A DNA stretch of 64,000 nucleotides from contig JAOPJY010000001.1 of NCBI GenBank assembly GCA_025517425.1, positions 1,474,217-1,538,216 on the forward strand, read 5' to 3'. The stretch is from Halobacteria archaeon AArc-dxtr1 (GTDB lineage: Archaea; Halobacteriota; Halobacteria; Halobacteriales; Natrialbaceae). Shown one piece after another: positions 3,167-37,417 of the stretch; positions within the stretch are counted from its first letter, which is position 1, and each line of letters begins with the position of its first letter. A program made the translations under genes and the position numbers. The notes under the pieces were generated by a model. That model saw only the letters and a list, made by a program, of their open reading frames with translations, did no database searches and was not told the DNA's origin.

Positions 3167-4369
3167 ATGAGTGATTCGCGTGCGTTCTGTCCCCGGTGTG
3201 GGACACCGCTTTCCGACACCCACCGTGAGCCGACGGTAGCAGCGAGCGATGGCTCCGACACCGACGCGAGCGCCGCGGGCGGGCACGTATCGGCTGGCGA
3301 CACATCACCAGCCGACACAGATTCCGACACCGGTGTCGCCGAATCGGTGCGCCACTGCGACGAGTGTTACTTCGAGGCGTTCGAGTTTGTCGACGCGCCC
3401 GACCGGATCGACGTGCAGGTCTGTGCACGCTGCGGGGCGGTTCACCGAGGAAATCGGTGGCTCGACGTCGGCGCCGACGATTACACCGACGTCGCAATCG
3501 AGGCGGTGAGCGAGGCGATCGCAGTCCACGTCGACGTCGCCGACGTCGCCTGGCAGGTCGAACCCGAGCAGATCGATCCGAACACGATCCGGATGCACTG
3601 TTACTTCACGGGTGTCGTGCGAGACCAGGCAGTCGAAGAGCAAGTAACGGTCCCGGTTCGGATCGCCCGCCAGACCTGCCAGCGCTGTGGCCGAATCGCG
3701 GGCGACTACTACGCCAGCATCGTCCAGATCCGGGCCGAGGATCGGAGCCCGGCAGCAGACGAAATCGATCGCGCGAAAGAGATCGCCCACGACGTCGTCG
3801 ACGAGATGGAGGCGACGGGCGACCGCAACGCCTTCGTCACGGAGACGAGCGAAACTGACGACGGGCTGAATATCAAGGTCTCGACCAACAAGATCGGGAA
3901 GAAAGTCTCGAACAAGATGGTCGAGGAGTTCGGCGGCACGGTAAACGACGCCGAAACCCTCGTCACGGAGGACGAAGACGGCAACGAGGTCTACCGCGTT
4001 ACCTTCGCCGTCCGGCTACCGCCGTACCGCTCCGGCGACGTGATCGACCTGGCGGACGACGACGACGGGCCCGTTCTCGTCCGCAGCGCTCGCGGTAACC
4101 TGAAGGGCGTCCGACTGACGACCGGCGAGCGCTACGAGGCGAGCTACGAAGAGGGCAACTCGCCGGACGCGCGAAAGCTGGGCGACCGCGACGATGCCGT
4201 CGAGACGACGGTCGTCACCGTCGAAGACGAGCGCGCAATCCAAGTGCTAGATCCCGAGACCTACCAGGCAACGACGATCTCCCGGCCGGAGTACGTCGAT
4301 CCCGACGCAGAGACAGTTCCGGTTCTCAAGAGCCGCGCGGGGCTCCACATCTTGCCCGACGATGAGTGA
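3167..4369 (+). CDS. nmd3: NMD3-family ribosome-associated zinc-finger protein
   Basis: A 400-residue homologue of eukaryotic NMD3, the 60S export adaptor; in archaea it probably acts in late large-subunit maturation or as an anti-association factor. Four CxxC pairs at residues 8/11, 64/67, 86/89 and 171/174 form the N-terminal zinc-binding module. An Asp/Ser/Thr-rich insertion at about 22-60 splits the first and second pairs. The ATG at 3167 is chosen because MSDSRAFCPRCG begins the zinc module and a TATA-like GTTTAAC sits 28 nt upstream. It overlaps the next gene by 8 nt, so the two are translationally coupled. Confidence 0.88.
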   Translation: MSDSRAFCPRCGTPLSDTHREPTVAASDGSDTDASAAGGHVSAGDTSPADTDSDTGVAESVRHCDECYFEAFEFVDAPDRIDVQVCARCGAVHRGNRWLDVGADDYTDVAIEAVSEAIAVHVDVADVAWQVEPEQIDPNTIRMHCYFTGVVRDQAVEEQVTVPVRIARQTCQRCGRIAGDYYASIVQIRAEDRSPAADEIDRAKEIAHDVVDEMEATGDRNAFVTETSETDDGLNIKVSTNKIGKKVSNKMVEEFGGTVNDAETLVTEDEDGNEVYRVTFAVRLPPYRSGDVIDLADDDDGPVLVRSARGNLKGVRLTTGERYEASYEEGNSPDARKLGDRDDAVETTVVTVEDERAIQVLDPETYQATTISRPEYVDPDAETVPVLKSRAGLHILPDDE

Positions 4370-5540
4370 GCCAGACGGCTCATCACCGTCTGGCGGTAAC
4401 GACGGCGAGCAATCGACGGCGGTGGCGCTCGCCGCCGTCGTCGAAAAGCCACGATCCGAGACAGCCATCGCCGCCCTTCGTGCGGAAGGCGTCTACGACG
4501 ACGCACGCCACGTCCAGGAGTACGGGCCGGAGACGGTCGCACTCCCAGTTACGGAGCCGCCAGCGGAGACGCGAGTTCGAGCGGTGATCCGGCAGATCGA
4601 TCCGGAGTACCGAAGCAAGAGTCTCGAGGCGCTGCTGACAGAACGCGGCTGGAGCGAGGCGGAGCTGGCGTCGGCGCCGGGTTCGTGGGCCGTAATCGGC
4701 TCGAACGTCCTCGTGACGCTTCCCGCCGACTGTCCGGACGAGAGTGCGGTGGGCGAGGCGCTGTTGACACTCCACGGCGAAGCGGAGACCGTCCTCGCGG
4801 ACGAGGGGATCGAAAACGACGGCGTCGAGGGAACTCACCGAGAGCCGAAGACACGCCTGCTGGCTGGCGATCCCGAGACGGAGACGATCCACGTCGAACA
4901 CGGGACGAAGTACGCCCTCGACCCGACCCGGGTAATGTTCTCCCCGGGAAATCAGGCCGAGCGCGTTCGGATGGGCGAGGTGGTTGTAGGGAGGGATGAG
5001 TCGATTTCAGGGAGGGATGAGTCGAACAGAGAGCGCGTCTTCGACATGTTCGCCGGCATCGGCTACTTCACGCTGCCGATGGCCCGGGCCGGCGCGCAGG
5101 TGACCGCAGCCGAGATCAACCCGACGGCGTTTCGCTATCTGCTCGAGAACGCAGTCTTGAACGACGTCACAGAGCGCGTCGACGCCTACCGGGCCGACTG
5201 CCAGGAGGTCGCAGCAGATGTGACGGCCGACCGGGTCGTGATGGGGTACTACGGGGCCGGCGGCGAGGCGAGAGAGAGTGGTGGCGAGCAGAGAGAGACA
5301 GCGCCGCGGTCCCGGGAAGCCCACGAGTACCTTCCCGCCGCACTCGAGGCGCTGGTTCCTGGCGGCGTCGTCCACTACCACGAGGCGACGCCGGAGTCAC
5401 AGCTGTGGGAACGCCCGATCGAACGGCTCGAGGCAGCCGTCGAGGCGACAGACCGAACGGTGGGACAACTCGAAACGCGACGGGTCAAGAGCCACAGCGC
5501 GGGCGTCGCCCACGTCGTCGTCGACGCCGTGATCGAGTGA
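4362..5540 (+). CDS. taw2: Class I SAM-dependent tRNA-modifying enzyme, Taw2/Trm5-like
   Basis: A 392-residue protein with an N-terminal tRNA-binding part and a Rossmann domain whose SAM site is DMFAGIGYFTLPMA (from about residue 228). The catalytic-region motif VVMGYYG near 290 fits Taw2 (aminocarboxypropyl transfer to 4-demethylwyosine-37 of tRNA-Phe) better than Trm5, which carries an NLP-type motif. Two low-complexity insertions are seen: a duplicated 7-codon unit (4988-5025) just before the SAM domain and an Arg/Glu/Ser stretch near 5265-5315. It overlaps nmd3, a translation-related neighbour. Trm5b remains an alternative. Confidence 0.75.
   Translation: MSEPDGSSPSGGNDGEQSTAVALAAVVEKPRSETAIAALRAEGVYDDARHVQEYGPETVALPVTEPPAETRVRAVIRQIDPEYRSKSLEALLTERGWSEAELASAPGSWAVIGSNVLVTLPADCPDESAVGEALLTLHGEAETVLADEGIENDGVEGTHREPKTRLLAGDPETETIHVEHGTKYALDPTRVMFSPGNQAERVRMGEVVVGRDESISGRDESNRERVFDMFAGIGYFTLPMARAGAQVTAAEINPTAFRYLLENAVLNDVTERVDAYRADCQEVAADVTADRVVMGYYGAGGEARESGGEQRETAPRSREAHEYLPAALEALVPGGVVHYHEATPESQLWERPIERLEAAVEATDRTVGQLETRRVKSHSAGVAHVVVDAVIE
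4988..5025 (+). repeat. In-frame tandem repeat inside taw2
   Basis: A 17-nt direct repeat (AGGGAGGGATGAGTCGA) occurs at 4988-5004 and 5009-5025 with a 21-nt period, so one unit is exactly seven codons and the protein reads GRDES twice. It lies at the junction between the N-terminal part and the SAM domain. Confidence 0.85.
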
Positions 5541-7592: not shown

Positions 7593-7690
7593 CGAACCGT
7601 CTCCGGGCGCGACGCGAGTCGTAAATACTGCGAGCCGAAACGCCGTCCTATCGCAACCGTATCCGCCGCCAACCTCGACGTAGGCGGACG

Positions 7691-7700
7691 ATTACAAATA
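7691..7700 (+). promoter_or_regulatory. TATA-like box upstream of the tRNA-like gene
   Basis: ATTACAAATA ends 27 nt before the predicted 5' end of the tRNA-like RNA at 7727, the normal spacing for archaeal tRNA promoters. The surrounding DNA is GC-rich, so the A/T cluster stands out. Confidence 0.5.
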
Positions 7701-7726
7701 CGAACCCCGCCGTTGGTCGAGAGCGA

Positions 7727-7814
7727 GGAAGGGTCGCTCAGCGGAAGAGCACCGCGGGCCACCTGGTCCGCGGCGGCCTCACGGCCGCGTGGCGTTCGAA
7801 TCCCACCCCTTCCG
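7727..7814 (+). tRNA. tRNA-like RNA gene with aberrant anticodon arm
   Basis: The ends pair as a perfect 7-bp acceptor stem (GGAAGGG 7727-7733 with CCCTTCC 7807-7813) with a G discriminator at 7814. The D arm is canonical (GCTC, loop AGCGGAA, GAGC) and the T loop is TTCGAAT (7795-7801). The T stem pairs fully only if C7793 bulges. The middle folds as a 9-bp hairpin with an ACCT tetraloop (7752-7773), so there is no 7-nt anticodon loop with U33. It is followed by a 6-bp arm with a TCAC loop (7773-7788), like a long variable arm. A decayed tRNA, a tRNA with an unrecognised intron, or a tRNA-like RNA are all possible. A TATA-like box lies 27 nt upstream. Confidence 0.5.
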
Positions 7815-7826
7815 TTCTCGCCGAAC

Positions 7827-8072
7827 TCACTCCTCGCGAAGCGTCGAGGACTCCTCGTCGACCGATTCGAGAGCCTCGACGGTCGACGCGGTCGGCTCGT
7901 CGGGCAGCGCATCGAGACACGGATAACACAGCAGGTGTGTCGAACCGTCGGCGAGTTCGAGAGTCATCGCCGTCCCGTCGCTGCCGTCGCGCTCGCCGAA
8001 CGTCCAGACGTTGGCGATACCGCCCGCGACCGAGACAGTGCGCCCACAGCCGTCGCAGCTGTTCGTTGCCAT
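7827..8072 (-). CDS. Small zinc-ribbon protein (DUF7561-like)
   Basis: An 81-residue protein from the ATG at 8072, with CDGCG near the N-terminus (residues 6-9) and CYPC in the middle. These form a two-CxxC zinc knuckle around a short beta-rich segment, followed by an acidic tail. It resembles a haloarchaea-only small-protein family (DUF7561 by memory). Function is unknown. The frame continues upstream to 8120, but that extension is Arg/Pro-rich and lacks support. Its 3' end lies only 12 nt from the tRNA-like gene on the other strand. Confidence 0.7.
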   Translation of the reverse strand: MATNSCDGCGRTVSVAGGIANVWTFGERDGSDGTAMTLELADGSTHLLCYPCLDALPDEPTASTVEALESVDEESSTLREE

Positions 8073-35842: not shown

Positions 35843-37417
35843 ATGACGGAACACAACGACAACACAGACGAGACGCGAACGGACGGAGGCGAGATCTCCC
35901 GGGAGGAGGCTTCGTTCGTCGAGTATGGGATCGAAGACAAACCGCCGTTGGGAGAATCGGCATTCTTAGGCGTCCAGCACTACCTGACGATGATCGGGGC
36001 GACGGTAGCGATTCCGCTCATCCTCGCAGATCTCATGGAGATGCCGGGGCCAGAGACGGCGCAGTTGGTTGGGACCTTCTTTGTGGTCTCAGGGGTCGCA
36101 ACGCTGTTACAGACGACGATCGGGAACCGGTATCCGATCGTCCAGGGCGGGACGTTCGCACTGTTAGCACCGGCGATCGCGATTATTCTCGCCGCAGGTG
36201 GACCGTGGGAAACCACGATCCTCGAACTACAGGGAGCGATCATCGCCGCAGCGGCGATACAGGTTATCCTGGGATACTCCGGCCTGCTGGGGAAACTCAA
36301 GTACTACCTCTCGCCGGTCGTCATCGCCCCGGTGATTGTGTTGATCGGGCTCTCGCTGGTCGACGTCGGTGAGGTAACTGACCCCGGTCAGAACTGGTGG
36401 TTACTCGGACTGACGCTGTTCCTGATCATCGCGTTCTCTCAGTACCTCGATCAGTACAGTCGGTACGCGAAACTGTTCCCAGTGCTGCTCGGCATCGCAA
36501 GCGCCTGGATCATCGCAGGCATCCTCACCGCAGCTGGCGTCTACACCGAAGCCAGCCACGAAGGAATGGGGTACGTCGACACTGCAGCAATGGTCGATGC
36601 CCCCCTCATCCAGCCGATCATGCCGTTCCAGTGGGGTATACCCGAATTTACACTGGCGTTCATGATCGGAATGTTCGCCGGTATCGTCGCATCGATGATC
36701 GAGAGTATCGGTGACTACTACGCAGTCGCTCGAATTGCTGGCGTCGGTGCGCCAAGCGAGAAGCGCATCAACCACGGGATCGGGATGGAAGGAATCGGCA
36801 ACATCTTCGCCGGTATCATGGGGACCGGTAACGGGTCGACCTCCTACGGTGAGAACATCGGCGCGATCGGCATCACCGGTGTCGCCTCCCGGTACGTCGT
36901 CCAGATCGGTGCGATCGTGATGCTGGTCGTCGGGTTCTTCGGACCCTTCGGAGCGCTTATTGTCTCGATACCGAACCCGATCGTCGGCGCGTTGTACATT
37001 GCGATGTTCGGACAGATCGCAGCAGTCGGACTGTCGAATCTGAAGTTCGTCGACTTGGACGCCTCGCGAAACGTCTTCATCGTCGGTATCGCGTTGTTCC
37101 TCGGGCTTGCACTCCCGAACTACTTTGGGAACTTCGCTGGCCCCGACGAGTTCCAGGCAGTGGCAGAAGGTGCGGCGGTTATCGGCCCTGTCCTCGGAGA
37201 GCAGATCGTCTCTGACACGATCTTCGTCATCGGTTCGACGACGATGGCCGTCGGTGGGATCATCGCGTTCGTCCTCGACAACACCGTCAGAGGAACGCGC
37301 GAAGAACGCGGTCTCTCCCAGTGGGAAGAACTCGCGGAAGACGAAGACGAGTTCCAGACGGTCTTCGAGCGGATGCGTTCCGACGGCGATTCGCCCGCAG
37401 TCGACAAGGCAGACTAA
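35843..37417 (+). CDS. NCS2-family xanthine/uracil permease (second copy)
   Basis: A 524-residue protein with about 14 membrane spans. It shares the YGIEDKPPLGES N-terminal motif with the 30.9 kb permease but is only distantly similar beyond that. Conserved NCS2 signatures are GTGNGSTSYGENIGAIGITG and SIPNPIVGALY. The N-terminus (DETRTDGGE) again carries a TDGG unit, as in the Amt-PII linker, and the C-terminal ~45 residues are acidic. It lies at the end of the transport region; a T7 run follows the stop. Confidence 0.93.
   Translation: MTEHNDNTDETRTDGGEISREEASFVEYGIEDKPPLGESAFLGVQHYLTMIGATVAIPLILADLMEMPGPETAQLVGTFFVVSGVATLLQTTIGNRYPIVQGGTFALLAPAIAIILAAGGPWETTILELQGAIIAAAAIQVILGYSGLLGKLKYYLSPVVIAPVIVLIGLSLVDVGEVTDPGQNWWLLGLTLFLIIAFSQYLDQYSRYAKLFPVLLGIASAWIIAGILTAAGVYTEASHEGMGYVDTAAMVDAPLIQPIMPFQWGIPEFTLAFMIGMFAGIVASMIESIGDYYAVARIAGVGAPSEKRINHGIGMEGIGNIFAGIMGTGNGSTSYGENIGAIGITGVASRYVVQIGAIVMLVVGFFGPFGALIVSIPNPIVGALYIAMFGQIAAVGLSNLKFVDLDASRNVFIVGIALFLGLALPNYFGNFAGPDEFQAVAEGAAVIGPVLGEQIVSDTIFVIGSTTMAVGGIIAFVLDNTVRGTREERGLSQWEELAEDEDEFQTVFERMRSDGDSPAVDKAD

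Follow-up and report, generated by a model that had tools for sequence, protein, structure and literature searches.

The locus and its RNA gene

The DNA analysed here, referred to throughout as the window, is a stretch of 64,000 nucleotides (nt) from the 2.8 Mb genome of the haloarchaeon Halobacteria archaeon AArc-dxtr1, a member of the Natrialbaceae (assembly GCA_025517425.1, contig JAOPJY010000001.1, positions 1,474,217 to 1,538,216 of the forward strand). Near its left end lies an 88-nt gene for a tRNA-like RNA, preceded by a TATA-like promoter box, in which the acceptor, D and T elements of a tRNA are all recognisable and a hairpin takes the place of the anticodon arm. Comparison with other genomes places this RNA in a family spread widely through the Halobacteriales, and it is very probably a non-decoding RNA maintained by selection.

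An earlier interpretation of the locus, made from the letters alone and called here the sequence-only reading, had described a 7-base-pair (bp) acceptor stem, a normal D arm and T loop, a G discriminator and, in the anticodon region, a 9-bp stem with an ACCT tetraloop followed by a second hairpin. Direct reading and folding bear out each of these features, whose coordinates are collected in Table 1.

Table 1. Features of the tRNA-like RNA gene and its upstream region (window coordinates)
Feature	Position	Strand	Evidence or remark
Archaeal TATA-like promoter box, GATTACAAATAC	7690-7701	+	about 27-35 nt 5' of the RNA start
Anticodon-less tRNA-like RNA gene, 88 nt	7727-7814	+	direct reading, folding and comparison
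Acceptor stem, 7 bp, GGAAGGG/CCCTTCC	7727-7733 / 7807-7813	+	direct reading
Acceptor 5' strand, GGAAGGG	7727-7733	+	unchanging in the inspected blastn-found family loci and in alignments A1 and A2
Acceptor 3' strand, CCCTTCC, with discriminator G (7814)	7807-7814	+	CCA not encoded
D arm, GCTC-AGCGGAA-GAGC	7736-7750	+	stem formed by every sequence (100%) of alignments A1 and A2
9-bp hairpin with ACCT loop, replacing the anticodon arm	7752-7773	+	both partners altered in 6 of 9 pairs within the family
Second hairpin, where a long variable arm would sit	7774-7787	+	folds; shortened or absent in certain lineages
T arm: 5-bp stem with the single nucleotide C7793 bulged out, loop TTCGAAT (7795-7801)	7789-7806	+	bulge needed in 184 of 184 sequences

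The predicted fold of 7727-7814(+) has an energy of -51.3 kcal/mol (z = -3.9), and none of 200 shuffled sequences was equally stable. The D arm carries the usual nucleotides A14, G15, G18, G19 and A21 and, as in decoding tRNAs, the elbow nucleotides of the D and T loops are present alongside the 7-bp acceptor stem. The AT-rich core of the promoter box, TTACAAAT at 7692-7699, corresponds to positions -35 to -28 relative to the RNA gene, in agreement with the TATA-like box of the sequence-only reading.

The means ordinarily used to find tRNAs fail at this locus. ARAGORN called no tRNA at 7727-7814, and the gene is not among the 41 matches of the Rfam tRNA model RF00005 in the same genome. A scan of the whole window against Rfam gave no match reaching threshold, and the only near match among the tRNA-type families was to the selenocysteine tRNA (tRNA-Sec) model RF01852, at 23.8 bits under a cut-off of 47 bits. 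In relatives, ARAGORN sometimes calls the corresponding copies as tRNAs, with inconsistent anticodons. Tools of this kind, then, either overlook the family or assign it spurious anticodons, and annotators should be warned accordingly. Separately, ARAGORN reports a tRNA-Gln(ctg) at 37180-37254 of the window, which the Rfam tRNA model does not match and which looks like coding sequence; it is probably a false call.

Distribution of the family

A blastn search with 7690-7830 as query matched 109 of the 125 genomes of the window's family, in 28 of its 29 genera; the upstream box usually accompanied the match. A covariance model built from 33 sequences, and then a strict pattern, were used to widen the search to the whole order, where the pattern was found in 179 of 392 genomes and 42 of 95 genera and the reversed pattern in none. 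When 84,980 prokaryote species were searched with the strict pattern, each represented by one genome, 117 contigs were recovered, all from Halobacteriales; the genera include Natrinema, Natrialba, Haloarcula, Haloferax, Halobellus, Halorussus and Haladaptatus. A sample of 242 genomes from the phylum's other orders contained no member of the family as the pattern defines it. In all, 184 distinct family sequences were collected. On this sequence evidence the anticodon-less tRNA-like RNAs of Halobacteriales are a genuine and apparently uncatalogued family, which may overlap with the elements of Hoelzle et al. 2012 discussed below.

Forty genomes of the order that lacked the pattern were examined with a broader model, matches of 35-43 bits in other genomes being counted as ordinary-tRNA background. 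They gave one clear extra member and two examples of a rare second form. This second form, which is likewise anticodon-less, combines the acceptor GAAAGGG/CCCUUUC with a T stem that has no bulge. It occurs in three of 293 genomes (loci L214, L215 and L360-L362) and was excluded from the family.

Some genomes have two copies of the RNA gene, and in genomes of the Halorientalis type a plasmid carries one of the two; a relative sits on a Halorientalis plasmid. The window sequence gave no match in plasmid and phage collections, and viral contigs gave none. At two loci (L143 and L144; G244:C2 and G212:C3) a short-type copy lies on a plasmid-like contig and adjoins an Orc1/Cdc6-like gene, a long-type copy being present on a different contig of the genome.

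Conservation, covariation and the T-stem bulge

Module identities were determined over 28 aligned Natrialbaceae rows, drawn from 17 named genera together with unassigned members, with no more than two rows each. The acceptor stem has a mean pairwise identity of 1.0, the T arm of 0.96 and the D arm of 0.95, although the first value is partly built in, since these rows came from a pattern that fixes the RNA ends. The loci found with blastn show the same conservation, and members found with blastn or the covariance model, which are free of the pattern constraint, have the same ends. Identity falls to 0.81 in the first hairpin and 0.67 in the second, and to 0.2-0.35 in the outer flanks. Upstream, the interval from -45 to -20 stands at 0.72, against 0.35 farther out; an AT-rich peak near -30 recurs in the larger haloarchaeal families even though their genomic contexts differ, and is less sharp in Haloarculaceae.

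What varies in the inspected blastn-found loci is the centre of the molecule: both hairpins differ in sequence and in length, while the acceptor, D and T elements are kept. Relatives form extended hairpins at the position of the 7752-7773 hairpin, the central region as a whole being 28-56 nt long. Its apical loops are mostly of 3-6 nt, with 7-nt loops in only six of the 184 sequences, and an anticodon arm, with a 5-bp stem and a 7-nt loop containing U33, can be drawn in just five of 183 and is absent from the folds of the window RNA. In eight pairs both partners have changed, against 3.9 in shuffles, which supports the pairing. At locus L051 (G035:C4, in a genome 55% complete) the second hairpin is split by about 80 nt of inserted sequence whose ends are inverted repeats.

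In the T stem the sequence-only reading correctly saw a single bulged C; this is a defining character of the family and not a defect. Read plainly, the stem pairs at two of its five positions, whereas with one nucleotide bulged it pairs at all five, and this is so in every one of the 184 sequences. The bulged stem is GCG-U-GG/CCCGC in most lineages and GUGG-C-G/CCCAC in the window's family; by comparison, a plain T stem of 5 bp is found in 39 of the 41 decoding tRNAs encoded by the window's own genome. The discriminator is not constant: of 117 named members 82 have G, 34 have A and one has C, and it varies even within Haloferax (seven G, two A), Halorientalis and Halobium. Encoded CCA was found in none of the 117 pattern-found members.

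Genomic position

In most Natrialbaceae, including the window, the RNA gene is divergent from a helicase gene (Helicase_C_2). In 26 of 80 neighbourhoods, covering several families and including two genera of Natrialbaceae, it lies downstream of sdhCDBA, or of such part of it as falls within the stretch, on the same strand, and we read this as the probable ancestral place. In another family the RNA gene adjoins glmS. No mention was found, in the Haloferax transcriptome and vesicle-RNA literature, of an RNA after sdhA. In the window a gene for a tRNA methyltransferase of the Trm5/TYW2 type lies near the RNA, at 4362-5540(+), and its cluster is present in 17 of the 80 neighbourhoods.

Proposed function

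The sequence-only reading had offered three explanations: a decaying tRNA, a tRNA with an intron at non-standard splice sites, or a stable RNA of tRNA-like form serving some other purpose. It is the third that the comparative evidence supports. It is the acceptor/T/D body of a tRNA, and not its anticodon, that is read by RNase P, tRNase Z, the CCA-adding enzyme, the elongation factor and many modifying enzymes, so it is tempting to suggest that the present RNA is matured as a tRNA would be and acts through its body. Transcribed from its own promoter, as the upstream box implies, it would be processed by the ordinary tRNA enzymes and given a CCA tail. The missing anticodon would keep it from decoding, and, as the elongation factor binds tRNA at the T stem, the bulged stem would probably fit aEF1A poorly. 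The body would then be presented to a tRNA-binding partner, which might be a processing or modifying enzyme, a synthetase or the ribosome, and the RNA would serve as decoy or regulator. This recognition of the body is the more tentative part of the proposal, and we would put its chances at a little under even. Our overall best explanation, that the RNA is a non-decoding member of a widespread Halobacteriales family of tRNA-like RNAs and acts through its body, is given a probability of roughly 0.55. A bolder version, in which a class of tRNAs found throughout the lineage has left decoding altogether to become a promoter-driven tRNA mimic, and the obligatory T-stem bulge bars it from elongation and commits it to some other partner, so that it could act for example as a charged donor of amino acids or as a dedicated inhibitor of a tRNA enzyme, is doubtful.

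Several observations weigh against the proposal that the RNA acts through its body. The family is patchy, scores in the remaining pattern-negative genomes lying at about the level of ordinary tRNAs, and the RNA must on that account be dispensable for haloarchaea in general. No neighbouring gene is common to every lineage in the neighbourhoods compared. Expression is a prediction drawn from the promoter box, and conservation of the body alone cannot separate a protein decoy from an RNA that is bound to the ribosome or aminoacylated.

The latter two possibilities merit separate consideration. A ribosome-associated regulatory RNA, its elbow bound to the large subunit and tuning translation, has a precedent of similar size in Haloferax volcanii: rancRNA_s194 is 97 nt long, has a TATA box 28 nt upstream and binds the 50S subunit and polysomes (PMC6104027), and Haloferax members of the present family are 98-101 nt long. 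The precedent has been mapped to HVO_2011s2 (PMC3956466), whereas the Haloferax family loci examined directly follow sdhCDBA, which makes it probable that s194 is a different gene. Compared by size, promoter spacing and location, s194 is like the family in the first two and apparently different in the third, and it is probably not the Haloferax ortholog. A role of this kind for the family seems unlikely.

Unlikely too is an aminoacylated RNA donating its amino acid outside the ribosome, which would need a synthetase blind to the anticodon, most plausibly SerRS. Serine identity resides in G73 and the variable arm and is independent of the anticodon (PMC9976931). G73 is found in all 50 Natrialbaceae and all 11 Haladaptataceae among the pattern-found members, and most of these fold with a hairpin resembling a long variable arm. 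However, the switching of the discriminator between G, A and C, even inside Haloferax, should alter identity and argues against one conserved amino acid; several lineages lack a variable arm or have none that can be recognised; and the window's own genome already carries four ordinary tRNA-Ser genes. A fixed serine tRNA was rejected as a candidate on the first two of these grounds; the window's own RNA does carry the G discriminator and a second hairpin like a long variable arm.

The RNA might alternatively be a base-pairing small RNA built on a tRNA scaffold, in which the loops of the variable hairpins are active and the body merely gives stability. The central region does evolve fastest and its loops are exposed, but close relatives differ in loop sequence and stem length while the supposed scaffold stays constant, and we regard this as decidedly improbable.

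That the gene is a relic of decay or an integration scar, either a decaying tRNA or an attachment (att) site for mobile elements, has very little to recommend it. Short copies of the 3' end, scar-like in appearance, do occur about 100-350 bp downstream in three loci of other genomes (L039, L040 and L065), and some family copies are on plasmid-like contigs. Yet identity within the family is 95-100% in the acceptor, D and T arms and only 20-35% in the flanks, which excludes decay, and the promoter, the 5' half and the paired hairpins are conserved over several families. An att site alone would not preserve a promoter, a D arm or a T-stem bulge, and viral contigs and phage records gave no match. 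The nearby 3' copies suggest, rather, that the RNA gene may also serve as an integration site.

The remaining alternative, an intron-bearing decoding tRNA with non-standard splice sites, is worth raising because archaeal tRNA introns may occupy unusual places and the same genome has an intron-bearing tRNA-Gln(UUG), which served as control and was solved correctly. Bulge-helix-bulge solutions restoring a canonical anticodon arm were obtained for only four of 183 sequences, against 4.65 when the central region was shuffled, and not for the window RNA; relaxed criteria gave 18 against 15.9, with no anticodon shared. Since the count is no higher than in shuffled sequences, and splicing would in any case leave the conserved T-stem bulge in place, this explanation can for practical purposes be set aside.

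The conservation of the tRNA body over several families in the absence of an anticodon amounts to a natural separation of decoding from the other functions of a tRNA. The presence of the family in the genetically tractable Haloferax, Haloarcula and Natrinema makes its function directly testable.

Comparison with known systems

In retaining a conserved tRNA body where decoding is impossible, the family has the character of a pseudo-tRNA. One close parallel is tRNAOther of Bacillus cereus (PMC3399842), likewise a tRNA-like small RNA acting outside translation, as is predicted for the haloarchaeal family. tRNAOther, however, has kept its Trp anticodon and is a poor substrate for lysylation in vitro, whereas the haloarchaeal RNAs belong to another domain of life, have no anticodon and share an invariant T-stem bulge. 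The mascRNA and menRNA of MALAT1 and NEAT1 (PMC9777231, PMC11693755) are also tRNA-shaped, have no decoding role and are produced by the tRNA-processing machinery; they are cut from long mammalian transcripts, while the haloarchaeal RNAs are encoded by stand-alone genes.

Within the haloarchaea, tRNA-like structure is also known from the t-element that precedes 5S rRNA in Haloferax volcanii and from the elements reported by Hoelzle et al. 2012 (cited in PMC4326828). The t-element is a processing signal beside 5S rRNA; the present family occupies other sites, carries a promoter box of its own and has a sequence-based definition.

Selenocysteine tRNA, the one near match in Rfam, was rejected as an identity for the RNA on the strength of its low score, the 4-bp D stem and the lack of a UCA anticodon. 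A search for SepSecS was negative in all 21 genomes examined and positive in the control, Methanocaldococcus jannaschii. As regards the bulge itself, the nearest structural counterparts are the selC* tRNA-Cys and 8/4 tRNA-Sec described in PMC7609411, whose T stems likewise have a single unpaired nucleotide, bulged at 51a. In most members outside the window's family the bulge lies between positions 51 and 52, matching its place in selC*. Those tRNAs have an 8/4 arrangement of acceptor and T stems and a real anticodon; the haloarchaeal RNAs combine the same kind of bulge with a 7/5 arrangement and no anticodon.
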